From positions 1 to 41,483 of the forward strand of contig CAIPYC010000110.1 of NCBI GenBank assembly GCA_903869185.1: 41,483 bases of DNA, read 5' to 3'. Shown piece after piece: positions 21,198 to 36,387 of the stretch. The notes under the pieces are model-generated. The model saw nothing but the letters and a program-made list of their open reading frames with translations, had not been told where the DNA came from and made no database searches. Both the position numbers and the translations under genes were made by a program. Each line of letters begins with the position of its first letter. Position 1 is the first letter of the stretch. Origin of the DNA: an uncultured cyanobacterium (lineage in GTDB: Bacteria > Cyanobacteriota > Cyanobacteriia > Cyanobacteriales > Microcystaceae).

Positions 21198-22307
21198 CTA
21201 AGTGCTCTTGGTTTTGAATCTATGTGACCAGTTGATTGCCGGTACCTCAACAACATGATAGATTACAGTTGCAACCAAAGTAGATAGAGCAAAAGTCAAT
21301 AATAAAGATATCAATCTTCCCATGAAGGTTTCATACAAGCTAGATTTCTTAGATATTCCAATTGTGAACTCAGCAATAGGCCAATGAACCAAATAAAGAC
21401 TATATGATATTTTTCCATAAAACTGTATTATTGGCCAATTCAACCAAGTGGTCATTTTTCCACTATATTTTGAAATTATTATAGAAAAACAAACTAGAGA
21501 AGCACAAATAAGATAAATGTTGTGCTGGTAAACAGAAATTGTCATAAATAATATTAAAAAAAAGATACCATGCCGAAATTTCAATTTCCCGTCGATAACC
21601 CAAAAAGATGCTATACCAAGAGAGAACATCACCCAGTATGGCAGAAAAATTGCTGGCTCTGGCATTGGAGTTATAAGGGTAACTTTGGAAATAGCCATTG
21701 TATGTGACAATGAATTCAAGGAAACTAGAAAGGTCAACAAAAATATAGATATATCGATATTCTTTATTTCTATTTTTCTTGATATTTGATAACATAAAAA
21801 ACTAAGTATTCCAAAAAATAAATAAAACTGTATTTCAATGCAAATAGTCCAATAAACAACATTTAGATTCATCGTATTGAAGAACTTTTGTATATAAAAT
21901 ATATGAGTTAGTAAAGTAAATAAATCAGGAAAATAATGAGACTTAGATAATTTTATTCGTATTATTAGTAAGGTCAGTGCGATAAGTATAGATGCATAGT
22001 ACGGGGGGGAAAGCCTAGCTAGGCGACGTAGAAAGAAATTGATAAAAGTCTTGACATTCCAGGTTTTTATATTTCGCACAGAGTAAGCTATCACGAACCC
22101 ACTGATAACAAAGAAAATCGGTACACCCAAATAACCATCATGCATTATTTGAAGTGCAGTATCTTCAATTTTGTTAGACCTTGGTAAAAGAAAAATATAT
22201 CCTCCATGACAGAAAAAAACCGCTAAACAAGCAATTGCCCTAAGTCCGTCTATAAAGGTCAGGCGTTTAGATTTCTTGATGATTTCATTTGATTGATGCT
22301 TGTGCAT
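21198..22307 (-). CDS. Acyltransferase family 3 (OafA/OatA-like) membrane protein
   Basis: A 369-aa integral membrane O-acyltransferase of family 3. Features are FIDGLRAIACLAVFFCHGG at the N-terminus (conserved Arg and the catalytic-type His in FFCHGG), GYLGVPIFFVISGFVI, RRLARLSPPYY and a C-terminal YHVVEVPAINW. About ten hydrophobic helices are visible. Such enzymes acetylate or otherwise acylate surface polysaccharides. I chose the ATG at 22307 because AGGGA lies 7 nt upstream; an in-frame start at 22349 would add 14 residues. The gene is more AT-rich than its neighbours and sits between trpS and an M23 peptidase, suggesting acquisition. A short ghost of a second copy lies just upstream (22353-22402). 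Confidence 0.88.
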   Translation of the reverse strand: MHKHQSNEIIKKSKRLTFIDGLRAIACLAVFFCHGGYIFLLPRSNKIEDTALQIMHDGYLGVPIFFVISGFVIAYSVRNIKTWNVKTFINFFLRRLARLSPPYYASILIALTLLIIRIKLSKSHYFPDLFTLLTHIFYIQKFFNTMNLNVVYWTICIEIQFYLFFGILSFLCYQISRKIEIKNIDISIFLLTFLVSLNSLSHTMAISKVTLITPMPEPAIFLPYWVMFSLGIASFWVIDGKLKFRHGIFFLILFMTISVYQHNIYLICASLVCFSIIISKYSGKMTTWLNWPIIQFYGKISYSLYLVHWPIAEFTIGISKKSSLYETFMGRLISLLLTFALSTLVATVIYHVVEVPAINWSHRFKTKST

Positions 22308-22352
22308 TTTATTTTCCCTGATATACTCAAAAACTCTATACTTAAACAATTA

Positions 22353-22402
22353 CTAAGTGCTCTTGGTCTTAAATCTATGTGACCAGTTGATTGCAGGCAC
22401 CT
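22353..22402 (-). pseudogene. Remnant 3' end of a second acyltransferase copy
   Basis: These 50 bases match the last 50 bases of the intact acyltransferase gene (21198-21247) with four differences. In frame, both encode VPAINWSHRFKTKST followed by TAG, and all four differences are synonymous third positions (GTA/GTG, CCG/CCT, TTC/TTT, AAA/AAG). Upstream of 22402 the similarity stops abruptly, so only the tail of a former paralogue survives. Confidence 0.85.
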
Positions 22403-22442
22403 AAAAGACTTGGAAAATAACAAAAGGGATAATGGAATCCTA

Positions 22443-23279
22443 TTACTCAATATTATGAGTTTTTTGGACCAAATACAGCATGGGATCCTGAGAAATCCAT
22501 CCTATGGGCTGCTTAATGCGAACTTCAAAATGAAGATGAGTTGCCACAATATCGGGGACTCCGCTGCGTCCTACAGTGCCCAATACTTGCCCTGATCTAA
22601 CCTTGGTGCCTATTTTTACCTTAATCTTATTCAACTGAGCATATCGGGTTTGTAACTCTTGGCTGTGATTGATGATGACTAAATTACCATAGCCCTTCTC
22701 CATTCCTGCATAGATAACTGTTCCACTTTCTACCGTCTTGACTGGGGTATCGAAATTGGCTAATAGATCTATGCCACTATGAAAAAACCTGCCTTCAACT
22801 CCAGGATCAGATGTTCTGTTCTGCCAGCCGTAGCTCAAGCCTATCTTTGCTATTGTAGGGAGTGGATAGCCGGAAAATCCAGAAAAATTATTGCTCCTTG
22901 AGTTAAGTGGCTTGGGTTGACCAGATAGGGCTGGAATAAAGACCAGAGAAGGTTTTTTTTGACATCCGTTAAGTTCAAATAGAACGTCAGCTCTAATTCC
23001 ATAATAGCCAGATAAATCCTGCCAAGAGGATCCAACTGGCGCTCGAACTGGCATACCATTTAATGGGGGGATGCTCACATTTGTATTAATAGGCAGCACC
23101 TGCTCACCCAGCTTAGGATTGAAAAGCTCTAGCGTTTGGGGAGAAAGATGAAAGATTCTAGATATGGTAGTAAGAGTTTCACCCGACTTATTGACGAGAT
23201 ATTGCTGCACATGGGAAAGAATTGGTTCTGATGGACAGCTCAAAGCTATTAGTACAACAGGGGACAAGAAAGGGTGCAT
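22443..23279 (-). CDS. LysM / M23 family metallopeptidase (cell-wall)
   Basis: A 278-aa putative peptidoglycan endopeptidase or envelope factor. A short hydrophobic N-terminus (residues 4-14) suggests export. Two LysM-like segments follow (about 27-72, with KSGETLTTISRIF and FNPKLGEQV; and about 84-116, with WQDLSGYYGIRADVLFELNG). The C-terminal M23 domain (about 145-265) keeps the zinc residues H167 and D171 (HSGID) and H248/H250 (HLHFEV), so it looks catalytically competent, unlike EnvC/NlpD-type activators. It is followed at 15 nt upstream by the PIN/TRAM gene on the same strand. LysM boundaries are approximate. Confidence 0.9.
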   Translation of the reverse strand: MHPFLSPVVLIALSCPSEPILSHVQQYLVNKSGETLTTISRIFHLSPQTLELFNPKLGEQVLPINTNVSIPPLNGMPVRAPVGSSWQDLSGYYGIRADVLFELNGCQKKPSLVFIPALSGQPKPLNSRSNNFSGFSGYPLPTIAKIGLSYGWQNRTSDPGVEGRFFHSGIDLLANFDTPVKTVESGTVIYAGMEKGYGNLVIINHSQELQTRYAQLNKIKVKIGTKVRSGQVLGTVGRSGVPDIVATHLHFEVRIKQPIGWISQDPMLYLVQKTHNIE

Positions 23280-23293
23280 AAACTTGGTTTGAT

Positions 23294-24370
23294 CTACACT
23301 AAAATTGGCACCTTGGCAAAGATCATTCTTCCTGCGGATGTTTGTAGGGCAGAGGTTACTATTACCCTAACCTCACTGCCACCTAAATAGTCTTTTCCCT
23401 CCTCGACAACAACCATAGTTCCATCTTCTAAATAGCCAATTCCTTGAGTTGGTTCTTTGCCTAATTTGAGTATTTTCAAATCAAGAGTATCCCCAGGCAA
23501 ATAGATTGCTCTGACAGCCTGCGCTAGATCGTTGACATTGAGAATTGATACTTTCTGAAGATTGGCAACCTTGCTGAGATTGTAGTCATTGGTTAAAAGA
23601 GTTGCGCTAATTTCCTGAGAAAGATGAACCAGTTTTGCATCAACGGTTGAAATATCATCATAGTCAGCAGGATGTATGATTATTTGCTCGGGATAGATAT
23701 CCTGTAGACGATTTAGAATATCTAGCCCTCTCCTGCCGCGTAATCTCTTTTGATCATTATTGGCATCAGCCAACTGCTGCAATTCTTGTAAAACAAATAT
23801 TGGCACCAATATCTGTCCCTCAATAAAACCGGTTTCTAGCAAAGGTTCAATTCTACCGTCAATAATACAGCTTGTATCAATAATCTTCGTAGGAGATGGC
23901 TTCAATGTACCTTCGGCTACCAATAAACTTTCTATACTGTTGGGGTTAATCATCCTCAGAAAAGTTCTGCCATGAGTATCAGCCAAGCCAACTCCCAGAA
24001 AAGAAAACATCACACTACCCAAAATAGCGACTAAAGGTTTGATAAATACAAACTCTTTGGGGATCGGCAAGAGAAAAATTGGTGCCAACATCAAATTGGC
24101 GATCAACAATCCAATAACTAAACCAATGGCACGAGTTAGAATGACTTCAATGGATGTTTTGCGAATCCTTGATTCAAGCCGGCGATAAGTGGTTTGCGCA
24201 ACTAAGCCAATAGCCAGACCGATGATAGAAGAAAAACCAGCAGCGAGCCAGCGCAGGGCTTCTATATTGGAAATCTGTTCTTGAATGCCAAGAGGCAAAA
24301 AATCTATACTAGTAAAACCTACGCTTGCTGAAGCAGTAACGAATAATAAGATGATAATGGCATCCAGCAT
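23294..24370 (-). CDS. PIN/TRAM domain membrane protein (YacL-like)
   Basis: A 358-aa protein with about four N-terminal hydrophobic helices (residues 1-140), a PIN nuclease-like domain (about 160-280, starting KIIDTSCIIDGRIE, with acidic residues in LQELQQLAD and TNDYNL) and a C-terminal TRAM domain (about 290-350, LPGDTLDLKILKLGKEPTQG and the GYLEDGTMVVVEEG motif). This order is that of the YacL family, conserved in Gram-positives and cyanobacteria. It may be a membrane-tethered ribonuclease, but its substrate is unknown. The M23 peptidase starts 14 nt after its stop, so they are probably cotranscribed. Confidence 0.9.
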   Translation of the reverse strand: MLDAIIILLFVTASASVGFTSIDFLPLGIQEQISNIEALRWLAAGFSSIIGLAIGLVAQTTYRRLESRIRKTSIEVILTRAIGLVIGLLIANLMLAPIFLLPIPKEFVFIKPLVAILGSVMFSFLGVGLADTHGRTFLRMINPNSIESLLVAEGTLKPSPTKIIDTSCIIDGRIEPLLETGFIEGQILVPIFVLQELQQLADANNDQKRLRGRRGLDILNRLQDIYPEQIIIHPADYDDISTVDAKLVHLSQEISATLLTNDYNLSKVANLQKVSILNVNDLAQAVRAIYLPGDTLDLKILKLGKEPTQGIGYLEDGTMVVVEEGKDYLGGSEVRVIVTSALQTSAGRMIFAKVPILV

Positions 24371-24485
24371 AATTAATCAGAACCTATAATTGCATAGACC
24401 CATTAATAGTAATTGTAAACTATTAATTTTAAGTCTTCTTTTATTATAGTCTGCAACCCAAATTAGCCAAAACTCTAAAATATAA

Positions 24486-25676
24486 TTGACTATATCTAAG
24501 TTCTGGAAAATACCCGAATCAGCTTACGTTCATATACCTTTTTGTCGTCGTCGTTGCTTCTATTGTGATTTCCCTATATCAGTCATAGGGGATAAAAGCG
24601 ATCCTGCCCAATTCCCTCCTATAGATATATATATCCAATGGCTTGAAAAGGAGATAAATCTTACTGAAAATCTGGGTAAACCACTCAAGACGATATTTTT
24701 TGGAGGAGGTACGCCATCTCTATTGCCAGTCAAGGGACTAAGTACAATTTTAGAATCTCTAAAAAATAAATTTGGCATTGCCCAAGATATTGAAATTTCT
24801 ATTGAGATCGATCCTGGTACGTTTACGGCAGACAGATTGCGACAATATCAAGATCTAGGGATCAACAGGATTAGTTTAGGCGTACAGGCTTTTCAGGATG
24901 AATTGCTCAAGTCCTGCGGAAGAGCCCATGATTTAAAGCAAATTTGGGACTCAATCAATTATTTGGAAGAGGTTAAATTTACAAATTTCAGTTTGGATCT
25001 TATTTCTGGGCTACCTCATCAGAGCTTAGAGCAGTGGGATGAATCACTAAAACAGGCAATTTCTGTTTCTTGCGCACATATATCCTGCTATGACTTGGTT
25101 CTAGAAGCTACTACTCCTTTTGGCAAGATTTATAATGCTGGGCAGTTACCTTTACCAACAGAAGAAGTTACAGCAGCTATGTACCGTATGGCCCAGAGAC
25201 AACTAACCCAGGTAGGCTATGAACATTACGAGATATCCAACTATGCTCGCGATGGACACCAATGCCAACACAATCGAGTCTATTGGGAAAACCAGAGTTA
25301 CTATGGCTTTGGCATGGGAGCTGCCAGCTATATCCAAGGGATTAGACATACTAGAGCTCACAAACGCAGTGATTATTACAAATATGTTGCAAGCTTGGAA
25401 AATAAACAATGCAAACTCAGCGCAGTTCAAAACAATAAAAAAGATCTATTGCTAGAAACCCTTATGCTTGGCCTACGTTTAGCTGAGGGGATTAGTCTTG
25501 AAAAAATAGAGCATGAATTCGGACAAGAGACAAAAGATATCTTAATTTCTTTAATGCAAGAATACTTGCAAAATGGTTGGGTTAATATACTTCCTGAAAG
25601 AATCCATCTGAGTGATCCAGATGGGTTCTTGTTTTCTAATGTTGTCTTAACTAGAATTTTTGAAAGATTTAGTTAG
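24486..25676 (+). CDS. hemW: HemW-family radical SAM protein (haem chaperone / coproporphyrinogen-III oxidase-like)
   Basis: A 396-aa radical SAM protein. The [4Fe-4S] motif is C20-x3-C24-x2-C27 (CRRRCFYC), after SAYVHIPF; GGGTPSLLP, SIEIDPGT and RISLGVQ follow, and the C-terminal HemW domain includes EHYEISNYAR and HNRVYWENQSYYGFGMGA. Early annotations call this coproporphyrinogen III oxidase, but the N-terminal C-x3-C-x2-C without the extra HemN cysteine indicates HemW, a haem-binding chaperone. The start must be TTG at 24486 or later: an in-frame TAA immediately precedes it and no ATG lies before the cluster motif. Its 3' end overlaps the convergent Pmp3-type gene by 8 bp. Confidence 0.92.
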   Translation: MTISKFWKIPESAYVHIPFCRRRCFYCDFPISVIGDKSDPAQFPPIDIYIQWLEKEINLTENLGKPLKTIFFGGGTPSLLPVKGLSTILESLKNKFGIAQDIEISIEIDPGTFTADRLRQYQDLGINRISLGVQAFQDELLKSCGRAHDLKQIWDSINYLEEVKFTNFSLDLISGLPHQSLEQWDESLKQAISVSCAHISCYDLVLEATTPFGKIYNAGQLPLPTEEVTAAMYRMAQRQLTQVGYEHYEISNYARDGHQCQHNRVYWENQSYYGFGMGAASYIQGIRHTRAHKRSDYYKYVASLENKQCKLSAVQNNKKDLLLETLMLGLRLAEGISLEKIEHEFGQETKDILISLMQEYLQNGWVNILPERIHLSDPDGFLFSNVVLTRIFERFS

Positions 25677-25848
25677 GTGTACTGAGATCTTTTGGCTCTT
25701 TGCTGATAATCCAAAAAGCGTGAATTATACCAGGTACCCAGCCAATGATGGTTAGAAGAATATTGATAAAAAGGGCTGGGCTCACTCCTTTAGTCAGAAA
25801 AACACTAACAGGAGGAAGTAAAACGGCAAGAATAATACGAACCAACAT
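25669..25848 (-). CDS. Pmp3/YqaE-family small hydrophobic peptide
   Basis: A 59-aa proteolipid of the Pmp3 (UPF0057) family, with two membrane helices (RIILAVLLPPVSVFL and FINILLTIIGWVPGIIHAFW). The signature LPPVSVFL is conserved. Relatives stabilise membrane potential during salt or cold stress. I chose the ATG at 25848, which has AGGGA about 7 nt upstream and gives the usual family length; an ATG at 25887 would add a 13-residue basic extension. Located between ilvD and hemW, it overlaps the end of hemW on the opposite strand. Confidence 0.85.
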   Translation of the reverse strand: MLVRIILAVLLPPVSVFLTKGVSPALFINILLTIIGWVPGIIHAFWIISKEPKDLSTPN

Positions 25849-25905
25849 GAGTTTTCCCTTAAACTGTTTTCTTGATTTTAACTCCATTTCGAGAGTAAGC
25901 TAATT

Positions 25906-27588
25906 TTAGAGATTTAGATCTGTAACCGCTCCTAAACTACTAGAAGAGACCAGCTTGGCATATTTGGCTAAAACCCCTGTTTTATAACGAGCTTGGGGCG
26001 GCTTCCATTGTGCACCTCGCTTGTTTAGTTCTTCTTGTGAAACATTTAGTTGTAACAGTTTAGCATCAGCATCAATAGTAATACTGTCACCTTCTTCTAT
26101 AAGTGCTATATTTCCGCCAACTGCTGCTTCTGGGGCAACATGGCCAACGACCATACCATAAGTTCCACCAGAAAAACGTCCATCTGTGATAAGTGCCACT
26201 GAATCGCCCAGTCCAGCGCCAATGATCGCAGAAGTAGGTGCCAACATTTCCCGCATACCCGGTCCACCTTTAGGTCCTTCATAGCGAATAACGAGCACAT
26301 CACCGGCCTGTATCTTTTTAGCTAGGATAGCCGCAAGACAATCTTCCTCCGATTCAAAAACCCTAGCAGGTCCAGTAATATGAGTATTTTTAACTCCACT
26401 GATTTTGGCAACAGCTCCCTCAGTAGCCAAGTTACCCTTAAGAATAGCTAAGTGTCCTTGCTGGTAGAGTGGATTTTTCCAAGGTCTGATTACATCTTGA
26501 TTAGCTAGAGGCTGATCCGGAGTCATAGTGAGAATTTCGGCAATCGTCTCTCCAGAAATAGTGAGGGCATCTCCATGCAATAGTCCCTGCTTGAGCAAAA
26601 TTTTCATAACTTGAGGAATTCCGCCAACTCGGTGCAAATCGGTAGCTACATAACGACCAGATGGCTTGAGATCACAGAGAACAGGTACTTTTTGACGAAT
26701 TAATTCAAAATCATCGATACTCAGATCCACCCCTATAGTTCGTGCGATTGCCAACAAATGCAGTACCGCATTAGTAGAGCCACCGATAGCCATGATGACT
26801 GCAATACCATTTTCAAAAGCCTTGCGGGTCAGTATCTCTCTAGGTAAAATCTGGCGACGGATAGCTTCAACAAGCACGAAAGATGACTTCTGTGTGCTTT
26901 CTGTCTTTTCATGATCTTCCGCGGCCATAGTAGAAGAATAGGGTAAGCTCATGCCCATTGCCTCAAAAACCGAAGACATAGTGTTGGCAGTATACATTCC
27001 GCCACAGGAACCAGCTCCAGGGCAGGCTTTTCTTTCAATTTCCAGTAGTTCTTCCTGGGAAATCTTACCCGCACTGTACTGCCCAACCGCCTCAAATGAA
27101 CTCACAACAGTTAAATCCTGCCCATTGTGATGCCCGGGTTTAATAGTACCACCATAGACAAAAATAGCAGGTATATTTAAGCGGGCCATGGCAATCATGG
27201 CACCGGGCATGTTTTTATCACAACCGCCGATGGCTAAAATTCCATCTAGACTCTGACCATTACATACTGTTTCAATAGAATCTGCTATGACTTCACGGGA
27301 GACGAGAGAGTATTTCATTCCCTCGGTTCCCATAGAAATGCCATCACTGATTGTGATAGTACCAAATACCTGGGGCATTGAGCCAGCTTCTTTTAGTCCT
27401 TTTTCTGCAGCTTTAGCTAGTTCACCAATTCCCATATTACAGGGAGTAATAGTACTGTAAGCATTGGCTAGTCCGACAATGGGTTTATTGAAATCGCTAT
27501 CTCCAAAGCCTACAGCCCTCAACATGGCCCGATTTGGCGATCTTTGTACTCCTTCAGTCACTATTTTGCTTCTTCGATTTTCGGGCAT
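25906..27588 (-). CDS. ilvD: Dihydroxy-acid dehydratase
   Basis: A 560-aa Fe-S dehydratase that converts dihydroxy acids to 2-keto acids in the isoleucine and valine pathways. Recognisable features are the start [20 protein letters not shown], the cluster cysteines in GGCDKN and [14 protein letters not shown], and the C-terminal [19 protein letters not shown] with the conserved SGG. The ATG at 27588 gives the normal N-terminus; an in-frame GTG at 27621 would add 11 unconserved residues. It is divergent from the HMA-like gene, with only 62 bp between the two chosen starts. Confidence 0.97.
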
Positions 27589-27650
27589 CAGATTATTATC
27601 CTGTTTGACAAATGAAACCACACTACTTTTAGAATTTTAACAGCAAGCCA

Positions 27651-28448
27651 TTGACCAGAATTGCTAGAATTGATCCTAATGCTAAACCAAGAATTTTTCC
27701 AAGTGTGATCAATATTGAACAGGTTAATGAATTTTCAACTACCTCAGTAGCTCAAGTTATCCATCAAATAGAAGGACGATTGAGAGTCCGGATATTGTGG
27801 TTGCAGGAATATCCTTCTATGGAGAAGAGATTGGAATCTCTATTGCTCTCTGTACTTTGGGTGAGGGAGGTAAGAATCAACCTGAAGACTAATTCGGTGA
27901 CCATAACATACCAATCTACCAAAATCAGCCTCACCAATTTTAGAGAGAGTCTTCTCAAGTCTATCCATCGAATGACCCCAGCAGATTTTCAAGAACAAAA
28001 AGTACAAAAAGAAGAATCTTTTGTTTCTCCCTCTTTCGGAAATCATCTACAGGAACTAGGCGGAAGGATGGTTGGTTCTTCTGCTGGGCAGATTATAGGT
28101 AGAGGATTTGGTATTGCAACAGGTAGGCTTTTGTTGGGACCTTTAGGAATTATCCCGGGTAGAAATGTTGGCAGTTTTATCGGTCAGGTTATAGGCGGTA
28201 ATGTTGGAATAGATAGTATACGTAACCTCCAGCAAAATAATGATCCAACCCCAAATCTAGGCAAAGTTTTAGAGAGAGGAGGAAGGGAAATTATGATGGA
28301 GGCACTGGGTGGATTTCTTTTTGGAGCGGTTGGTTCTGCTACCCTGGGTGTACCCGGACTGATTTTTGGAAGGATAGTAGGAGGAGCAATCGGTAGCCAA
28401 GTCAGTGATGATCTTTGGTATATTCAATCGACCTCTAAACGAATATGA
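27651..28448 (+). CDS. HMA-like (HMA2-type) domain protein with glycine-rich membrane region
   Basis: A 265-aa protein. Residues about 33-108 form a domain resembling the HMA2 type, with HQIEGRLRVRI (G42-R43-L44-R45) in place of a CxxC metal site, then strands VREVRINLKTNSVTITYQ. The rest is dominated by two glycine-zipper-like hydrophobic blocks (about 135-190, with SAGQIIGRGFGIATGRLLLG; and about 215-252, with ALGGFLFGAVGSATLG), suggesting membrane insertion or oligomerisation. The start is uncertain: TTG at 27651 is the longest, and a GTG near 27704 is possible. It is followed by a DUF5132-like gene and a P-ATPase-like gene whose N-terminus carries the same HMA2-like motif. Function unknown. 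Confidence 0.75.
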   Translation: MTRIARIDPNAKPRIFPSVINIEQVNEFSTTSVAQVIHQIEGRLRVRILWLQEYPSMEKRLESLLLSVLWVREVRINLKTNSVTITYQSTKISLTNFRESLLKSIHRMTPADFQEQKVQKEESFVSPSFGNHLQELGGRMVGSSAGQIIGRGFGIATGRLLLGPLGIIPGRNVGSFIGQVIGGNVGIDSIRNLQQNNDPTPNLGKVLERGGREIMMEALGGFLFGAVGSATLGVPGLIFGRIVGGAIGSQVSDDLWYIQSTSKRI

Positions 28449-28455
28449 AATTTAA

Positions 28456-28483
28456 TTGAAAATTTTATAATTATTGTTATAAT
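28456..28483 (+). promoter_or_regulatory. Sigma70-type promoter before the DUF5132-like gene
   Basis: TTGAAA (28456-28461), a 16-bp spacer, then a perfect TATAAT (28478-28483). It lies 85 nt before the ATG of the DUF5132-like gene, within the 120-bp gap after the HMA-like gene, so that gene and those downstream can be transcribed independently of it. Confidence 0.65.
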
Positions 28484-28568
28484 CTTTACTAAATTGAATT
28501 CCTCTAGAGTAGTTCAAAATACTAACAAAAGATCAACTTAACTTTTTAGATATTAGATAGAGGACAAA

Positions 28569-28880
28569 ATGGATTTCGAAGCACTTTTTTTAGGTATAGA
28601 GCCAGTTGTGGCTTTTAGTTTAGGCGCAGCAGCACTAGCAATTGGCAGCGCTGTTACTTTGTTTGGCAATACTGAAGCTGGTAAAACAATTACCGAATCG
28701 GGCCGGGATATGACCAAAAGCGGAATCAAATGGGGTATCGATACTTTCGAAAAAGTTCAAGGAGGCATTGCTGAGGCTAACGAATCCTGGAATGATTTGG
28801 TGGCAGAAGCCCAGTCAGAAATAAAAATTTCCAAGAACTCCAAAGTTTCTGAACCTAAAGAGGTAAATATCTCAGAATAA
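28569..28880 (+). CDS. DUF5132-like small membrane protein
   Basis: A 103-aa protein with one N-terminal hydrophobic helix (about 10-32, VVAFSLGAAALAIGSAVTLF), followed by an amphipathic, charged helical part (GIKWGIDTFEKVQGGIAEA to WNDLVAEAQSEIK) and a polar tail. This shape and the final DLVAEAQSE motif resemble DUF5132, which I know as a companion of HMA-domain proteins and P-type ATPases in bacteria. AGAGG (28558-28562) precedes the ATG by 6 nt. A near-consensus promoter lies upstream and a terminator-like hairpin lies 27 nt downstream. Function unknown; a membrane-organising role is conceivable but is an inference. Confidence 0.75.
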   Translation: MDFEALFLGIEPVVAFSLGAAALAIGSAVTLFGNTEAGKTITESGRDMTKSGIKWGIDTFEKVQGGIAEANESWNDLVAEAQSEIKISKNSKVSEPKEVNISE

Positions 28881-28906
28881 TCAGAAACAAATATAAATAT
28901 TTCTTG

Positions 28907-28953
28907 CTGCTGACGATTAATGATGTTTTGTTTTGTTCGTCAGCAGGTTTTTT
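28907..28953 (+). terminator. Terminator-like hairpin (possible attenuator) before the P-ATPase-like gene
   Basis: A perfect 10-bp inverted repeat CTGCTGACGA / TCGTCAGCAG (28907-28916 with 28937-28946), a 20-nt loop, then GTTTTTT. It begins 27 nt after the DUF5132-like stop, and its T-run ends 14 nt before the ATG at 28968, so it could reduce or condition expression of the downstream gene. Confidence 0.75.
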
Positions 28954-28967
28954 ATTCAAACTCATAC

Positions 28968-30239
28968 ATGAAAAAACGTAATCGAACCAAGCCCAAAAAA
29001 GTCCTTGAACTACCTTGGATTGATTATCATGTTATCCATTCTAGTCCAGGACGTTTGAGAGCTAAAATTCCTCGTTTAAAGGAAGATATTTTCTATTGTT
29101 CTAATTTAGAAAAATTAATTTCTTGTAATTCGTCAATCCTTGATTATCGCTTAAATTTAGCTGCCAGTTCGCTAGTGATATCTTACAATAGCAAAGATCA
29201 AGCTAAACAGGCATTTCTGGTCTATCTTGACGGCATAATTCGTAAGGCCGCATTGAGCGATCTAGATGGAAATAATGAACCCAATATAGTTGCTAGGGAA
29301 GAAAAAAATCTTGGACTACCAATGTTCGCCTTGGCAACAAGTCTAGTTGCTATCCCGCTTGAGTTACCTTTTTTTGTAGTTGGCGCCCTGATTGTGGCAG
29401 CTTCAGGTACATTATGGCAAAGAGTAAATAGCAATAAGGAAACCCCAATCAATTTTGATAGTCTAGATGCACTATGGCTGGGTTCCCAGCTCTTCTCAGG
29501 TAACCTAGTAGCTGGTGCCTTGGCATTGAACCTGTCTCAAGTGGGGGAAAATCTGCGACAAACCAATATCAAGACAATAGAAAACGAACTCTACAGATCG
29601 CTTGAAGCCAACGTAAATTCTCCCCAGGATCAAAAATGGTCAGATTCAATAGAAGATACAGAATTGTTAAGGCAAATCAAGCCCCTTGCCCAGCAATCGA
29701 TAGTGCCTATTTTGATTTTAACAGGCATCACTACTTTGCTCACAAATGACTTGGGAAGGTCCGCTGCATGGCTTCCTCTAAATTTGGGACTTTCGCTCAG
29801 GGGAATCACTCCCCTAGCTATAGCATCTTCTCTAGATAAGGCAGCACAATTTGGCGTACATATCCCCGATGGCAAGACCTTAGAAAAATTAGCCAAGGTA
29901 GATTATCTGCTTACATCTGCTGACGCTCCCCAGGAACGGGGTGAAAATGTGGCGTGGCTAGAAGATTCTTATCTGGTTCTTGCCCAAGATGGTAGCAAAA
30001 TTGTCCTGGACTCACAAAATGATCTTGCCAAGGTAGAACAATCTATAGACTTGGCCCAAGAGACCATCTCTACCATCTACCAAAGTATAGGCCTTGTGAC
30101 ATCACTGAACATGAGTGCTGTTTTTTTGGGAGTATTCCTCGGGGTTGACCCAATCATCACGGTTTTGATCAATGCAGGGGCGGCAATTGCAGGCGAACTC
30201 AACAGTCTTAAGTTGCATCAGAGAATTAGAACGAACTAA
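28968..30239 (+). CDS. Membrane-only P1B-ATPase-like protein lacking A, P and N domains
   Basis: A 423-aa intact ORF. Residues 15-95 are an HMA2-like domain (HSSPGRLRAKI, G28-R29-L30-R31). The remainder aligns in order with the membrane parts of a P1B-type metal ATPase: helices at about 117-150 and 165-190, LSQVGENLRQTN (normally leading into the actuator domain), a helix pair at about 243-290, then GVHIPDGKTLEKLAKVDYLL, matching the segment just before the phosphorylation site. Where DKTGT should follow there is TSADAPQE, and the protein passes directly to the final part (DLAQETISTIYQSIG and the last helices). No TGE, DKTGT or GDGxND motif exists, and the Cys of the usual CPx motif is absent (RGITPLA). 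It cannot be a normal ATPase. The ATG at 28968 is preferred; the one at 28920 lies in the upstream hairpin loop. Confidence 0.75.
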   Translation: MKKRNRTKPKKVLELPWIDYHVIHSSPGRLRAKIPRLKEDIFYCSNLEKLISCNSSILDYRLNLAASSLVISYNSKDQAKQAFLVYLDGIIRKAALSDLDGNNEPNIVAREEKNLGLPMFALATSLVAIPLELPFFVVGALIVAASGTLWQRVNSNKETPINFDSLDALWLGSQLFSGNLVAGALALNLSQVGENLRQTNIKTIENELYRSLEANVNSPQDQKWSDSIEDTELLRQIKPLAQQSIVPILILTGITTLLTNDLGRSAAWLPLNLGLSLRGITPLAIASSLDKAAQFGVHIPDGKTLEKLAKVDYLLTSADAPQERGENVAWLEDSYLVLAQDGSKIVLDSQNDLAKVEQSIDLAQETISTIYQSIGLVTSLNMSAVFLGVFLGVDPIITVLINAGAAIAGELNSLKLHQRIRTN

Positions 30240-30397
30240 TGAGATTCTGTTTATATGGCACACAACCGTGTTGGTAAATGTTAAATATTGTCTGTTTTTG
30301 TGCTAACATTCGACAAACATTTCGTTAGATTCTCCTGCTCATAATCTTTCTTGAAAAACTATCGATGCCCGGTCAAATCAATATCACAACAAGAATT

Positions 30398-31204
30398 ATG
30401 CTTCAACACGATCATTCTTCAATTCCAGTAGTTATATTATGTGGTGGCAAGGGAACTCGATTAAGAGAGGAGACCGAATTTCGACCAAAGCCCATCATTA
30501 ATGTAGGCGATAGGCCGATTGTATGGCATATCATGAAATCTTATGCTCACTATGGCTTTAAAAATTTTATACTCTGTTTAGGTTATAAGGGCGAAGTCAT
30601 CCGGGATTATTTTATCAATTACGATTGGAATCACACTGACATCAAAATAGAACTAGGCAACAAGAAAGTGACCAAGTTAGGCAACAGTCATAGTGAGGAA
30701 GATTGGCAAATCTCTATGATCAATACAGGTCAAGAGACCATGACAGGTGGTAGATTGAAACGTCTTATCCCCCATCTTAAAAAAAGCGGCAGTGATATTT
30801 TCTTTGCTACCTATGGGGATGGGGTTTGTGATGTAAATATCAAAAATGTCTTGGATTTTCATATTGGTCATGGCAAATTGGCCACAGTGACTGCTGTTCG
30901 TCCTGCTTCTCGTTTTGGTGAATTAATGATTGAAAACAACATGGTCACTCATTTCAAAGAAAAACCACAAACTGCAGAAGGTTGGATTAATGGTGGATAT
31001 TTTGTCTTAAATCGCAAGGTCTTGGATTTAATTGGGAATGATGATACAGTTTTTGAGGATCAACCACTGAAAACTCTATCTGAAACCGGAGAACTGGGAG
31101 TCTATCAACATGAAGGTTTTTGGCAATGTATGGACACTTATAGAGAATTAGAGTTACTAAATAAACTTTATAGCTCAGGCAATGCCAAATGGAAGGTATG
31201 GTAA
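30398..31204 (+). CDS. rfbF: Glucose-1-phosphate cytidylyltransferase
   Basis: A 268-aa nucleotidyltransferase that makes CDP-glucose from CTP and glucose-1-phosphate. The N-terminal motif ILCGGKGTRLREETEFRPKP holds the GG..TR..E..KP residues typical of RfbF rather than of GlgC or RmlA. YGDGVCDVNI supplies the metal-binding Asp. GWINGGYFVLNRKVLD and FWQCMDTYREL complete the family pattern. Two starts are possible (30365 or 30398); the later one brings the length closer to the usual 257 aa. It is the first gene of an rfbF-G-H cluster and overlaps rfbG. The 125-bp upstream gap shows no firm promoter. Confidence 0.93.
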   Translation: MLQHDHSSIPVVILCGGKGTRLREETEFRPKPIINVGDRPIVWHIMKSYAHYGFKNFILCLGYKGEVIRDYFINYDWNHTDIKIELGNKKVTKLGNSHSEEDWQISMINTGQETMTGGRLKRLIPHLKKSGSDIFFATYGDGVCDVNIKNVLDFHIGHGKLATVTAVRPASRFGELMIENNMVTHFKEKPQTAEGWINGGYFVLNRKVLDLIGNDDTVFEDQPLKTLSETGELGVYQHEGFWQCMDTYRELELLNKLYSSGNAKWKVW

Positions 31205-32310
31205 ATAAATTCTGGCAAGGAAAAAAAGTCCTAATAACAGGACATACTGGATTTAAAGGCTCTTGGCTTTCACTCTGGCTTCTGCATTTAGGAGCTCAAG
31301 TTAAAGGATTAAGCTTGGCTCCTAGTACAAATCCATCTCTCTTTGAGCAGTTATCTCTTGCCAGAGAGCTGGAAAATGTTATAGGGGATATCCGGGATCT
31401 TGAGTTGATCAAAGGCATAGTAAAATCATGGCAACCTGATTTAATATTCCATTTAGCAGCTCAGCCACTGGTCAGGAGATCCTATATAGAATCAGTAGAA
31501 ACCTGGAATACCAACGTGATGGGAACTATCCATGTTTTGGAATCTCTTAAGAGTCTTTCCCATCCCTGTGCCTTAGTGGCAATTACAACGGATAAATGTT
31601 ACGAAAACAGGGAATGGATTTATGGCTATAGAGAAAATGATCCTTTGGGTGGACATGACCCATACAGCTCTAGCAAGGCCGGGGCTGAACTGGCGATTAG
31701 TTCTTGGCGGAGTTCTTTCTTCAATAAACCAGAAATCCCCATTGGTATAGCCAGTGCCAGAGCGGGTAATGTCATTGGAGGGGGTGATTGGTCTGAAGAT
31801 CGCATCTTACCCGATACTATTGGCTCCTTAATGCGAGGAGAACCCATACCTGTGCGCAATCCAAACTCCACTAGACCATGGCAACATGTTTTAGAACCTC
31901 TATCTGGCTATCTGAACCTTGGAGAGCATCTCTATAAGGGTCTAGGCTCTGTTGATGATCATCATATTCAGAGTCCTTTCAATTTTGGACCGGTACTCGA
32001 GTCTAATCGAACAGTTAAAAGTCTGGTTGAATCAATATTGCAACATTGGACTGGTAGCTGGATAGATCAATCAGATCCCAATGCTCCTCATGAAGCCAAA
32101 TTGTTAAATCTCATCACAGATAAGTCCTTTCATCTGCTTAAATGGAAACCTGTATGGAATTTTCAGCAGACGGTACAATATACGGTTACCTGGTATAAAC
32201 AAGCCAGCATCATTTCAGATGGAGAACATGAAGCTTTTCAAAAATTGACTTTACAACAGATAGAGCAATATCAAAGCGATCAAAAGGCCCAAAATCCAGT
32301 AAATATTTGA
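31198..32310 (+). CDS. rfbG: CDP-glucose 4,6-dehydratase
   Basis: A 370-aa short-chain dehydrogenase that converts CDP-glucose to CDP-4-keto-6-deoxyglucose using bound NAD. The Rossmann motif is ITGHTGFKGSWLSLWL, characteristic of this enzyme and distinct from RmlB. HLAAQPLVRRSY and the catalytic Y-x3-K (DPYSSSKAGAE) are present, as are RAGNVIGGGDWSEDRI and NSTRPWQHVLEPLSGYL. Its start overlaps the end of rfbF (ATG at 31198; the in-frame ATG at 31189 is an alternative). Its product is the substrate of the next gene. Confidence 0.95.
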   Translation: MVNKFWQGKKVLITGHTGFKGSWLSLWLLHLGAQVKGLSLAPSTNPSLFEQLSLARELENVIGDIRDLELIKGIVKSWQPDLIFHLAAQPLVRRSYIESVETWNTNVMGTIHVLESLKSLSHPCALVAITTDKCYENREWIYGYRENDPLGGHDPYSSSKAGAELAISSWRSSFFNKPEIPIGIASARAGNVIGGGDWSEDRILPDTIGSLMRGEPIPVRNPNSTRPWQHVLEPLSGYLNLGEHLYKGLGSVDDHHIQSPFNFGPVLESNRTVKSLVESILQHWTGSWIDQSDPNAPHEAKLLNLITDKSFHLLKWKPVWNFQQTVQYTVTWYKQASIISDGEHEAFQKLTLQQIEQYQSDQKAQNPVNI

Positions 32311-32322
32311 GGTAGATGGACA

Positions 32323-33651
32323 ATGATACAGAACGTTGCAGCTAGCCAGGAACAACAGCTCAGAGATAAGGTTTTCGATGCAGTTAAAGAATATTATCAA
32401 TACAAATTCAGTCCTCGTCCTTTTGTACCAGGACAGAGCTATGTACCGGTATCAGGTAAGGTTTTTGATGAACAGGAATTGGTTAAATTAGTAGATTCAT
32501 CCCTGGATTTTTGGTTAACTACAGGACGCTATGCCTTGGAATTTGAGGAACGCTTTGCCGAATGGATTGGTATTAAACATTGTCTTTTGGTTAATTCAGG
32601 TTCTAGTGCCAATCTTTTAGCCTTGAGCGCATTGACTTCTCCCAAATTAGGAGATAAAAGACTAGTGCCAGGCGATGAAGTGATCACTGTAGCCGCTGGA
32701 TTCCCCACGACAGTCAATCCGATCTTTCAAAACCAGCTTGTTCCAGTTTTTATAGATGTTGAGTTGCCCGGTTATGACATAGATATAAAACAATTGGAGC
32801 TTGCTCTTTCCAAACGAACCAAAGCAATCATGATAGCTCATACCCTAGGTAATCCTTTTAATCTAGAACAAGTTATGGATTTTGTGCAAAAACATGATCT
32901 CTGGCTTATTGAGGACAATTGTGATGCTGTAGGCAGTACATATCAAGGAAAAAAAACCGGAACTTTTGGTCATATTTCTACTGTTAGCTTTTATCCTGCC
33001 CATCATATGACCATGGGAGAAGGTGGCGCAGTTCTCACTAGTGACACTCGTCTGAAAAAAATCCTAGAATCCTATCGCGACTGGGGTAGAGATTGCTGGT
33101 GCCCTCCTGGTGTAGATAATACATGTAATAAGCGTTACGGTTGGCAATTGGGCGAACTACCCTTTGGCTATGATCACAAGTATACATATTCACATGTAGG
33201 CTACAATCTGAAAATGACAGATATGCAGGCCGCAGTAGGGGTAGCCCAATTAGATAAACTACCTGAATTCATTCAAAAGAGAAGGGAAAATTTCGCCTTT
33301 ATTCATCAACATCTTCAAGATTTGCAAGATTTTTTACTTTTACCTCAAGCAAGTCCAAACTCAGATCCCAGTTGGTTTGGTTTTCCACTTTATGTTAAAG
33401 AATCAGCTCCTTTTAGTAGAAATGATTTGGTTAAATATCTTGAGGATAAAAGAATAGGTACTAGGCTACTTTTTGCTGGAAATCTTCTTCGTCAGCCACT
33501 TTACGAGGGTTTGAACTACAGAGTGATTGGAGATCTTGCCAATGCCGATAAGATTATGCAAAATGTTTTTTGGCTTGGTGTTTTTCCCGGTCTTACACAA
33601 GAGATGTTGAGCTACATAGTAAGTACGATTGCTGAATTTTGTCGTAAATAA
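32323..33651 (+). CDS. rfbH: CDP-4-keto-6-deoxy-D-glucose-3-dehydrase (E1)
   Basis: A 442-aa PMP-dependent, [2Fe-2S] enzyme of the DegT/DnrJ/EryC1 fold that removes the C3 hydroxyl in 3,6-dideoxyhexose synthesis. Two diagnostic features are visible. The usual PLP-binding lysine is replaced by His (H227 in [13 protein letters not shown]). The iron-sulfur cysteines follow exactly C-x57-C-x1-C-x7-C (C200, C258, C260, C268). GAGG lies about 10 nt before the ATG. The partner reductase E3 (RfbI/AscD type) that normally feeds electrons to E1 is not in this window, so another reductase or a distant gene must serve. Confidence 0.96.
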
Positions 33652-33655
33652 TACT

Positions 33656-34699
33656 ATGAGCAGTATAATTGCCCAAGATCTCGATCATATTCTCAAGCAT
33701 ACCGAGCCTCTCTGGCAAGAGCTAAAAGACAGCAGAATTTTTATTACTGGTGGAACTGGTTTCTTTGGCTGCTGGCTACTTGAGAGCTTTATCTTGGCAA
33801 ATGAGAAGTTGAATCTGGGAGCTAGGGCTTGCGTATTGACCAGAAATCCTGCTATTTTTCAAACCAAAGCTCCTCATTTGGCTTATCACAGCTCAATAGA
33901 ATTGCTCGGTGGAAATATTACCTGTTTTGATTTCCCCGAGGGGCAATTTTCCCACATCATTCATGCTGCTACTGAAGCTAGTGCGAAACTCAATCAGGAG
34001 AATCCACTGCTGATGTTTGATACTATTGTCGCTGGAACAAGGCGTGTTCTGGAATTTGCCAGGGTTTGTGGCGCATCAAAACTATTATTGACTAGCTCAG
34101 GAGCTGTCTATGGTAAGCAGCCATCTGAAATGACTCACTTGGCTGAGGATTATCTCGGTTCACCAGATCTAAGTGAGCCCGGTTCATCCTATGGAGAAGG
34201 TAAGCGTGTGGCAGAAATGCTTTGTACTTTATATGCCAAGCAATATGGACTTGAGATAAAGATTGCTCGCTGCTTTGCTTTTGTCGGCCCCTATCTTCCC
34301 CTAGATATCCATTTTGCAATTGGCAATTTTATTAAAAATGCATTGCTTAATGAGCCAATTGAAATTAAAGGAGATGGAACAGCCTATCGTTCTTATCTCT
34401 ATGCGGCGGATTTGATGATATGGCTGTGGACAATTTTATTTCAGGGGCAAACCTGTCGCCCCTACAATGTAGGCTCTCAAGAAGGTCTGACTATTAAAGA
34501 TACCGCTTTAATGGTAGCTGATTGCTCCTCAAAGTCAATTCCAGTGCGCATCGCTCAAAATGCAGATCCTACCAAGTTAGCTTCTAGGTATGTTCCTAAT
34601 ACACAAAGAGCGATGACAGAATTGGGACTTCATACCACAATAGATATATCGTTGGCAATTAATAAAACAATCGAGTGGAACTTAAAAACGCAGCAATGA
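33656..34699 (+). CDS. NAD-dependent epimerase/reductase, probable CDP-dideoxyhexose synthase
   Basis: A 347-aa extended short-chain dehydrogenase. The Rossmann motif is ITGGTGFFGCWLLE, followed by HIIHAATEASA and the catalytic triad Ser/Tyr/Lys in LTSSGAVYGKQPSE and SYGEGKRVAEML. It begins 4 nt after rfbH (ATG at 33656; an upstream in-frame start would overlap rfbH). At this position, relatives act on the RfbH product: CDP-paratose synthase (RfbS), CDP-abequose synthase (RfbJ) or a similar 4-keto reductase. The sequence alone does not say which. It closes the rfb cluster; no transferase or flippase follows. Confidence 0.85.
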   Translation: MSSIIAQDLDHILKHTEPLWQELKDSRIFITGGTGFFGCWLLESFILANEKLNLGARACVLTRNPAIFQTKAPHLAYHSSIELLGGNITCFDFPEGQFSHIIHAATEASAKLNQENPLLMFDTIVAGTRRVLEFARVCGASKLLLTSSGAVYGKQPSEMTHLAEDYLGSPDLSEPGSSYGEGKRVAEMLCTLYAKQYGLEIKIARCFAFVGPYLPLDIHFAIGNFIKNALLNEPIEIKGDGTAYRSYLYAADLMIWLWTILFQGQTCRPYNVGSQEGLTIKDTALMVADCSSKSIPVRIAQNADPTKLASRYVPNTQRAMTELGLHTTIDISLAINKTIEWNLKTQQ

Positions 34700-34732
34700 G
34701 AACAAAAGCTAGTTTAAAAAAATCTAATATCT

Positions 34733-35866
34733 ATGGAAAAAGCCTCACTGATTAAGGCAATCGATGATTTATTGCAAGCCGAGGTTTGGGATAAACAAGA
34801 AGCTTTCTTGGTTCTCCAAGAAGTTCGTGATTATTTATTGGCACCGCCGCCTACACAAGTCGATAAAATCAGCAAATTAACCGATCTCATTGATTTACTG
34901 CCAGATCAAAAACACTGGTCGGCAATTTTTGAATATCGTAATGATCAACGCAACTTTCATCTAATAGAGAAAATATCTAAACGCTTATATTCTTTTACAT
35001 TGCCATTGGCTCACTTTTCTCTTAGTGAAATTCTTGTTAATCCAGATAAATTGAGTAACTCAGAACTTACTCCAAATGAACTTACTCAGGCATTCAATTC
35101 TCTTAGAAAGCTTATCATCTGTTGCCCTACTGGAGAATATGAAACCCTTTCTTTGGAAGTAGAAAATAATTTAAAAATTGATCAGATTTCTTGGTTGAAT
35201 CCTTCTGTTGGACTTATCTTATCTGAGCTAGAACAATTAGATTCACTCCCGACTCTAGCAATCTGGACAGGAAAGACCACCACTGAATTTGCCTACCTGG
35301 ACTTACCAAATCAGAAAAACAAGTTTTCATCCAATTTGTGTAAAATTGGTTCAATCCAATATGGATATGAAGCTCTGATACAGGATTTATTCTGCCATAT
35401 GATCTATCCACAGTGGAAAGGCCAATTAAACAACACAATTCCAGCAATTAATTTGAACCCAGCCAGAGCCGGTCAGGCTGATTGGCAAAATAGAAATACA
35501 TTGAAAATACAATTGGACCAACACCCTTTAGGTCATGCTTTGCTCAAGCTTACTGTCCTACTAGCAGAGATTTTGCAATTTCAAGGCGACTATAGTTCCC
35601 ATCTGCGTAAAGAGCCTTGGCAAGTTCAAAGAGCTCAATACGATAGCGAGATTGTCAGTCCTTATCTGGAATATTTAATGATATCAATTGAGAGCATTTT
35701 AAAAATTACAATCCCTGATGTCAAACAGGTTATCTACGGGGGTAAATTACTGGAATTGATTCACCCCCAATCTAGTGGCATATTTTCTCATGCCAAGCTA
35801 TACAAAGTGGTAAAGCTCGAACAAGGGATTGGTAACATCCTGAACTACCCAGACCTTTTTGTCTGA
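34733..35866 (+). CDS. Conserved-looking hypothetical protein, unrecognised
   Basis: A 377-aa soluble-looking protein with no signal peptide and no clear membrane helix. I do not recognise a family. The N-terminal 60 residues are helical and charged (LQAEVWDKQEAFLVLQEVRD). The middle contains ELDSLPTLAIWTGKTTTEFA-like beta segments. The C-terminal part is helical (PLGHALLKLTVLLAEILQFQ and SPYLEYLMISIESILK). It starts 33 nt after the rfb cluster, and its TGA shares one base with the ATG of pgsA (TGATG), implying coupled translation. That suggests, without proving, a link to phospholipid synthesis or the envelope. Confidence 0.7.
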   Translation: MEKASLIKAIDDLLQAEVWDKQEAFLVLQEVRDYLLAPPPTQVDKISKLTDLIDLLPDQKHWSAIFEYRNDQRNFHLIEKISKRLYSFTLPLAHFSLSEILVNPDKLSNSELTPNELTQAFNSLRKLIICCPTGEYETLSLEVENNLKIDQISWLNPSVGLILSELEQLDSLPTLAIWTGKTTTEFAYLDLPNQKNKFSSNLCKIGSIQYGYEALIQDLFCHMIYPQWKGQLNNTIPAINLNPARAGQADWQNRNTLKIQLDQHPLGHALLKLTVLLAEILQFQGDYSSHLRKEPWQVQRAQYDSEIVSPYLEYLMISIESILKITIPDVKQVIYGGKLLELIHPQSSGIFSHAKLYKVVKLEQGIGNILNYPDLFV

Positions 35867-36387
35867 TGAATTTGAATCTTCCCACCTGGATCACCTTATC
35901 TCGCTTGCTTTCTATTCCTATAATTCTCTATCTTCTACAATCTCCTACCAATGAGCATCGAACTGTTGCCCTTTTTGTTTTTTTACTAGCTTCACTAACT
36001 GATTGGGTTGATGGTTACTTAGCTAGGCGGCTCGATCAGGTTACCGAACTGGGAAAATTCTTGGATCCTTTGGTTGATAAACTCCTGGTGCTATCTACTT
36101 TATTGGCTTTAATTCAAATTGGTTTAGTGCCAGCTTGGGGGGTTTGCCTGATCCTCACTAGAGAACTTATCATATCAGGATGGCGAATCAATCCTAGTTT
36201 ATCAGGAAGCTCTTCAATTTTAGGAGCAAATATCTGGGGGAAATGCAAAACCTTCAGCCAAATTTTGTCCATTGCCCTGCTTCTAAGTCCTGTTAACTTC
36301 TCTTGGGCATTGGCGGTGTTCTGGTTATCTGTGCTTTTGACCTTGATCTCAGGTATTATTTATCTCTTGCCTGGTCGAGACCGATAA
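35866..36387 (+). CDS. pgsA: CDP-alcohol phosphatidyltransferase (phosphatidylglycerophosphate synthase)
   Basis: A 173-aa membrane enzyme that joins CDP-diacylglycerol and glycerol-3-phosphate on the way to phosphatidylglycerol, an essential thylakoid lipid. The CDP-alcohol transferase motif DGx2ARx8Gx3Dx3D is perfect: D49, G50, A53, R54, G63, D67, D71. About four to five hydrophobic helices are present and the length matches PgsA. Its start codon overlaps the stop of the unknown gene upstream. Other members of the family are possible, but size and the N-terminal LPTWITLSRLLSIPII favour PgsA. Confidence 0.92.
   Translation: MNLNLPTWITLSRLLSIPIILYLLQSPTNEHRTVALFVFLLASLTDWVDGYLARRLDQVTELGKFLDPLVDKLLVLSTLLALIQIGLVPAWGVCLILTRELIISGWRINPSLSGSSSILGANIWGKCKTFSQILSIALLLSPVNFSWALAVFWLSVLLTLISGIIYLLPGRDR

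Follow-up and report, generated by a model that had tools for sequence, protein, structure and literature searches.

The three-gene cluster

The 41,483-nucleotide stretch of DNA analysed here (the window; contig CAIPYC010000110.1 of assembly GCA_903869185.1, from an uncultured cyanobacterium of the Microcystaceae) contains three consecutive open reading frames (ORFs) on the plus strand between positions 27651 and 30239, at 27651-28448, 28569-28880 and 28920-30239, flanked by ilvD on the minus strand at one side and by a nucleotidyltransferase gene at the other, both recognised by family matches. The first encodes P1 (27705-28448, 247 amino acids, aa), which joins a CoBaHMA/HMA_2 domain to two glycine zippers and is calcyanin-like without a third zipper; the second encodes P2 (28569-28880, 103 aa), a DUF5132-like protein; and the third encodes P3 (28968-30239, 423 aa), a pseudo-P1B-ATPase with a CoBaHMA domain and membrane helices and without the actuator (A), phosphorylation (P) and nucleotide-binding (N) domains. 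The longest possible P1 would begin at a TTG codon at 27651, the likely start being the GTG at 27705, where the orthologue in the same-genus genome G002 begins, and the likely start of P3 is the ATG at 28968, which gives the 423-aa product. An H-x3-GRLR motif is common to P1 and P3, and the ORFs and profiles bear out the first-pass annotation of this DNA, which had described three plus-strand genes with a GRLR motif shared by the first and third and zipper blocks in the first.

P3, a pump scaffold without catalytic domains

The HMA_2 (PF19991) match inside P3 (29031-29249, plus strand) scores 23.8-25.3 bits, below the cut-off of 30, and the match of P3 to the NCBIfam heavy-metal P-type ATPase model TIGR01525, at 42.3 bits, is far under that model's cut-off of 346; the Pfam profile search returned no E1-E2_ATPase (PF00122) or Hydrolase match in P3 up to E 1. 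Alignment to an intact relative of 745 aa shows that P3 retains its N-terminal domain and, best of all, its membrane helices, whereas the A domain, the DKTG motif, the N domain and the P domain are gone; none of the P1B hallmarks checked (DKTG, actuator TGE, GDGxND, CPx motif) is present. The helices of the P1B ion path are present by alignment, and PDB profile matches to P1B pumps are confined to the C-terminal part. The alignment and the absence of Pfam domain matches thus agree with the earlier description of the third gene as P1B helices without actuator, phosphorylation and nucleotide-binding domains. Judged from its sequence, P3 is a conserved pseudo-pump, anchored by P1B-type helices and unable to hydrolyse ATP. 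The host genome encodes two intact CoBaHMA-ATPases, on contigs C6 and C154, both with DKTG, TGE and GDGxND, in line with the earlier proposal that the scaffold of an ATPase now serves as a membrane protein without catalysis, alongside an intact ATPase elsewhere.

The same trio adjoins the same ilvD gene in G002 (the metagenome-assembled genome Umea_bin-05048), and comparison with that genome gives ratios of nonsynonymous to synonymous substitution rates (dN/dS) of 0.13 for P1, 0.06 for P2 and 0.20 for P3, beside 0.05 for the neighbour ilvD and 0.11 for hemW. In the P3 comparison dS is about 1.2 and neither genome has a stop codon. P3 is under purifying selection, and dN/dS largely refutes a pseudogene. 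A shorter trio is found in genome G001 (an HMA_2-type protein of 187 aa, a DUF5132-like protein and a 345-aa P3), four Microcystis genomes have intact P3 versions of 494-520 aa, and a plasmid of Gloeothece verrucosa PCC 7822 carries genes for a heavy-metal P-type ATPase, a DUF1345 protein and a DUF5132 protein, along with a short ORF and a P3 relative of 522 aa whose annotation is 'HMA2 domain-containing protein'. The orthologues in G002, G001, Microcystis and Gloeothece rule out a one-off deletion, and close homologues that are all full length, which would have told against the reuse of an ATPase scaffold, are not what we find: 21 of 388 genomes of the order encode a relative lacking DKTG.

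The DKTG-less CoBaHMA-ATPases, of 345-796 aa, are a series from full length to membrane-only. Those of 714-793 aa in G190, G202 and G235 keep all domains, with DRTG and GDGINE; forms of 592-690 aa without DKTG found elsewhere have, judged by eye and by length, no N domain any more and an A domain that is mostly degenerate; and in the alignment the 494-522-aa Microcystis and Gloeothece forms, though without DKTG, still show what is left of the P domain's second half. In a quick tree 27 of 29 DKTG-less rows fall in one clade (Shimodaira-Hasegawa-like approximate likelihood ratio test, 87), the rows of G042 (414 aa) and G052 (412 aa) lying elsewhere; careful trees split the DKTG-less rows, and the approximately unbiased test does not reject a single clade (p 0.305). 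Whether the pseudo-ATPases arose once is thus neither established nor refuted by these trees, for which rows below 140 bits or 330 aa and cut rows below 640 aa were dropped (159 kept), followed by rows more than 92% (pseudo) or 72% (others) identical (74 kept). The first careful tree was made without G446 (409 aa), G042 (414), G052 (412), G057 (554) and G235 (582), the second also without G446 (724), and the f41 pseudo-ATPases, whose score with the tree model is too weak, are absent from the trees.

Several further observations concern these relatives. In Microcystis G046 (L043, 7314-8862) the pseudo-ATPase is broken into three ORFs and there is no glycine-zipper match, possibly a joint loss. 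A second full-size paralogue, B, keeps DKTG and has GEGIND or GEGLND for GDGxND in several genomes (L099, 6532-8835; L217, 2732-4987; L307, 7866-10154), so that its catalysis may be altered as well. A YegS-type lipid kinase annotated in Gloeothece (L115, 12063-13565) and a similar ORF in Microcystis G039 (L181, 5405-6925) match the CoBaHMA-ATPase model weakly, at about 61 bits, apparently through an HMA_2-like domain, which also occurs with DUF454. Another recurrent family, of 330-374 aa, combines a hydrophobic N-terminal stretch with an HMA_2-type domain; its members are found in the window's genome and in Microcystis (L054, 7390-8514; L053, 949-2058; L180, 2017-3009).

P1 and its glycine zippers

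P1 matches HMA_2 at 37.8 bits (cut-off 30) and has two glycine-zipper blocks besides. GlyZip1 and GlyZip2 (28050-28418, plus strand) score 76.7 bits over positions 2-129 of a 198-position (GlyZip)3 model, and the zipper part reaches 77.5 bits with a model built without P1, against 9.7 for the best shuffle (978 reported of 1000 made). In zippers 1 and 2, fourteen columns hold glycine without exception in P1, in its orthologue and in a further eight zipper proteins. With P1 and this orthologue as queries, 14 of 386 phylum genomes gave a match at E<=1e-8, and among the matches are proteins of 303-362 aa with an N-terminal CoBaHMA-like domain and three glycine zippers; the match in G446 has another N-terminal domain. 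An N-terminal domain followed by a triple glycine zipper is the architecture of calcyanin (ccyA), the N-terminal domain being of several kinds, CoBaHMA among them; the definition of calcyanin is reportedly that of Benzerara et al. in 2022, and the CoBaHMA form that of Gaschignard et al. in 2024. Most of P1 can be aligned with proteins of this architecture, and this alignment and the HMA_2 score identify the CoBaHMA-type N-terminal domain of calcyanin; the sequence stops after zipper 2, short of a C-terminal (GlyZip)3. Our use of the name calcyanin rests on architecture and one neighbour gene.

The host genome does encode a protein with a (GlyZip)3, on another contig (G000:C87:31103-31711), which scores 133.5 bits over positions 111-300 of 316 with model A5, from which it is absent, and 228.5 bits over positions 2-198 of 198 with model A6, in which it is included. 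G002 likewise has a three-zipper protein on a contig other than that of the trio, and in both genomes a similar ORF of roughly 950 aa lies two genes off. The (GlyZip)3 profile found no convincing match in the PDB. Zipper proteins of 202-224 aa without a recognised CoBaHMA domain are a separate family in Microcystis, Gloeothece and G181 (L169, 11888-12556; L180, 16449-17123; L183, 1536-2162; L044, 5551-6159), and in Gloeothece and G181 the gene lies a few kb from a pseudo-ATPase.

Pseudo-ATPases co-occur with zipper proteins

In the order sample of 388 genomes the pseudo-ATPase model A2 matched 64 at E<=1e-30, and the ORFs of all 64 were classified. A DKTG-less ATPase is present in 21 (G000, G001, G002, G011, G015, G022, G023, G027, G028, G039, G042, G046, G181, G190, G202, G235, G252, G339, G350, G358 and G379); the remaining 43 comprise 42 whose ORFs, as far as seen, contain DKTG, and G295, where a contig end truncates the gene. 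Model A6 of (GlyZip)3 (E<=1e-10) matched 17 of the 388 genomes, 17/17 with a DKTG-less ATPase, and 0/43 of those with only other CoBaHMA-ATPases. Counted by genus, a GlyZip match occurs in 9 of 149 genera, all within the 11 that have a DKTG-less ATPase (9/9 vs 2/140, Fisher 7e-13). Nine of the 17 genomes cover the full zipper model (2-198), all nine with a DKTG-less ATPase, which in two is of the DRTG form (G190, G202); in G022 the pseudo-ATPase is in two contig-end pieces and the GlyZip match is a fragment of a two-zipper protein.

The same association is seen in two families scanned afterwards. Among the 29 f40 genomes (20 at least 90% complete, 13 of these 20 with a GlyZip match) the zipper model matched 13, two partially. 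Each of these 13 encodes an ORF of 499-685 aa without DKTG, that of G689 (499 aa) being the shortest and partial, compared with 0/16 of the others (Fisher 1.5e-8); CoBaHMA-ATPases are found in the same 13, the other 16 having none at E<=1e-15. In f41 (106 genomes, 66 at least 90% complete) a GlyZip match occurs in five, 5/5 with DKTG-less ORFs of 703-796 aa vs 0/101 (Fisher 1e-8), and the sixth match of model A9, in G657 (E 4e-22 with the pseudo-ATPase model), is catalytic, with DKTG, TGES and GDGxND. DKTG-less relatives are present too in the f39 genomes G446 and G554 and in G659 and G663. Across the phylum sample (386 genomes) GlyZip occurs in 16, 16/16 with a DKTG-less ATPase, the pseudo-ATPase scan of negatives covering the order, f40 and f41.

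Gene order points the same way in part of these genomes. One shared locus recurs in three f41 genomes: in G770 and G751 a zipper protein is followed by a divergent DUF5132-like ORF, a catalytic ATPase, a 121-aa ORF and a pseudo-ATPase, the ORFs nearly abutting or overlapping, and G626 has the zipper protein, a DUF5132-like ORF (14.2 bits), the catalytic ATPase and the pseudo-ATPase within 9 kb. In f41 genomes G634 and G752 the pseudo-ATPase is on a different contig from the zipper gene, and in G559 the three-zipper gene lies at ~1.20 Mb, the pseudo-ATPase at ~0.39 Mb and two more CoBaHMA-ATPases at ~0.90 and 2.08 Mb; with genes hundreds of kb apart, physical linkage alone does not explain the co-occurrence. 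The loci of G358, G350 and G339 bring together, in a span of about 25 kb, the genes of a CoBaHMA-zipper protein, of a pseudo-ATPase and of catalytic ATPases, with a Ca2+/H+ exchanger (TIGR00378) in G358 and a Get3-like ATPase in G339 by family test, and a carbonic-anhydrase-like ORF, recognised by eye, in this set of loci. The three-zipper gene of three Microcystis genomes (349 aa) overlaps an exchanger-like ORF that shares its start with a protein of the sodium/calcium exchanger family, a membership tested and confirmed for G039, where a 113-aa P1-like HMA_2 protein lies upstream of the three-zipper gene.

P2 matches DUF5132 (PF17195) at 24.6 bits, and its orthologue in G002, 91% identical, at 29.1 bits. 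DUF5132-like ORFs recur near CoBaHMA-ATPases, those of f41 giving a weak match (G626, as above) or none (G659). A few kb from the trio lies a gene whose product looks by eye like a PIN/TRAM protein (window 23294-24370, minus strand), and a similar 359-aa ORF directly adjoins the three-zipper gene in the f40 genomes G449, G586 and G683 (L119, 123-1202; L178, 6788-7867; L368, 8757-9836), possibly an old shared neighbourhood.

Ion path and proposed function

The CPC motif is absent from the 34 aligned rows of catalytic relatives, the family reading about DfGTGIRVSVPT with a conserved Asp beside the CPC place, where the CopA-type outgroup reads ACPCALGLATPT. P3 reads LNLGLSLRGITP, without a CPx motif, at the place of ACPCALGLATP in that outgroup. 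No Cys or His is conserved across these rows in the helices compared. The missing CPC, the adjacent Asp and the lack of conserved Cys or His suggest that the transported ion would be a hard rather than a soft metal.

We propose, with a probability of roughly 0.55, that the trio derives from a cyanobacterial system of CoBaHMA/P-type ATPases whose occurrence follows that of calcyanin-type zipper proteins, and that P3 acts on a hard-cation pump, probably for Ca2+, that would supply intracellular amorphous calcium carbonate (iACC). Being unable to pump, P3 probably associates with an intact CoBaHMA-ATPase and shapes or regulates it. Its partner would most likely be one of the intact enzymes of C6 and C154 or the three-zipper protein of C87, and P3 would serve as scaffold or regulator of a hard-cation pump that would feed or hold iACC, the cation most plausibly being Ca2+. 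P1 would be a calcyanin relative and P2 a small helper, and the CoBaHMA domains may form a shared docking element through which P1 or calcyanin is recruited too. A more specific version, tentative and with the odds against it, is that calcyanin-bearing cyanobacteria assemble a mixed pump from CoBaHMA-ATPases with and without catalytic domains, by which alkaline-earth ions would be loaded into a Ca-carbonate compartment; the non-catalytic paralogue would be an obligatory partner in it, and the pump complex would be the transport part so far missing from the calcyanin system.

A number of points weigh against this proposal. We infer the protein contacts, the cation and the role in iACC. In the ion path, 26/34 catalytic rows share a Met in the helix that precedes the A domain, and P3 and its G002 orthologue have Asn for the conserved Asp. 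The AlphaFold models are poor (mean pLDDT 51.9 for P3, with the HMA domain near 80, and 45.3 for P1). P1, with only two zippers, is not calcyanin in the strict sense, and the DRTG forms, which keep all domains, may still be active; excluding the three genomes that have them leaves 18 DKTG-less genomes, which cover 14/17 GlyZip genomes. Four of the 21 DKTG-less genomes have no GlyZip match (G042, G046, G252, G379), intact CoBaHMA-ATPases occur in many genomes without GlyZip, and several matches are partial (G001, 2-58; G235, 2-137; in f40 G679, 6-78, and G689, 37-96 with a stop). No more than four ATPase candidates per genome were scored in the order scan, so pseudo-ATPases may have been missed, and the order association was favoured by the make-up of A6, seven of whose 11 rows came from genomes picked partly or mostly for pseudo-ATPases and four from the P1 search. 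It was noticed after the data had been seen; f40 and f41, scanned later when some GlyZip genomes there were already known, are cleaner tests, yet not blind, and incomplete genomes are among their negatives. All co-occurrence counts are of related genomes rather than independent events. Finally, the envelope of iACC granules is about 2.5 nm thick and not a lipid bilayer (PMC6087745), so that the place of such membrane proteins weighs against the simplest picture.

Alternative explanations

Were the P3 relatives decaying ATPases, a pseudogene series without present function, the graded domain loss and the broken G046 copy without its zipper match would follow naturally, but a dN/dS of 0.20 at a dS of about 1.2 with both genomes free of stops largely refutes this, and intact ORFs in distant families and co-occurrence in three scans add to the case; we regard decay as very improbable. 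Greater weight, while still unlikely in our judgement, goes to a membrane scaffold or passive channel made from pump helices and general to CoBaHMA proteins, which would organise membranes or the envelope, with calcyanin as one of several clients. The membrane part is indeed what P3 has kept best, and CoBaHMA/HMA_2-like domains are found also in the YegS-type lipid kinase annotation and with DUF454; such a general role leaves unexplained why none of the 43 genomes with only intact CoBaHMA-ATPases has a GlyZip match.

An iron module resembling the ferrosome, in which the CoBaHMA/xxGRxR proteins and the P1B remnant belong to an iron-storage organelle and have nothing to do with calcium, seems to us distinctly unlikely. 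Its attractions are the GRLR motif, which resembles one that the first-pass annotation gives for ferrosome ATPases, and the greater frequency of CoBaHMA-ATPase matches than of GlyZip (64 vs 17 of 388); however, the pseudo-ATPases track zipper proteins, and the Microcystis three-zipper gene adjoins a gene of the sodium/calcium exchanger family. For the iron link drawn in that annotation we found nothing in support, no search for fez genes having been made; what we see instead is the association with calcyanin-type glycine-zipper proteins and the sodium/calcium-family exchanger.

Significance and relation to known systems

Calcyanin is associated with intracellular Ca-carbonate in cyanobacteria according to three reports (PMC12836880, PMC12746419, PMC11773610). 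The last of these, from 2025, states that Cyanobacteriota have yielded no functional counterpart to the Ca-ATPases known from other bacteria that form carbonate, and that what ccyA specifically does is still unclear. Cyanothece sp. PCC 7425, a laboratory strain, forms iACC (PMC6087745), and a genetic toolbox has reportedly been described for it (PMC7530172). As a gene family found together with calcyanin-type proteins in several lineages, the pseudo-ATPases supply concrete, testable partners for calcyanin, and the trio points to an unstudied part of cyanobacterial calcium handling. The P3 relatives are moreover P-type ATPases that keep their membrane part after catalytic loss, in a series from full length to membrane-only. 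Pseudo-P-type ATPases in the calcyanin system have no recognisable description in the accessible literature, which is weak evidence of absence as subscription papers were mostly outside its scope.

Each component has a recognisable counterpart from which it departs. Ferrosomes are Fur-controlled, membrane-bound iron granules, and the likeness of the cluster to their Fez proteins is that of a small membrane protein with a transporter, but among the ORFs listed for 22000-36000 the window has no intact P-type ATPase gene. P2 resembles DUF5132, itself scoring just under the cut-off of 25 that its orthologue exceeds. P3 is like the HMA_2/CoBaHMA subgroup of P1B-type ATPases in its HMA_2-like domain and membrane helices, and differs in lacking the A, P and N domains, DKTG and the CPx motif. 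P1, which differs from calcyanin in the missing zipper 3, shares with it the N-terminal CoBaHMA-type domain and zippers 1 and 2.

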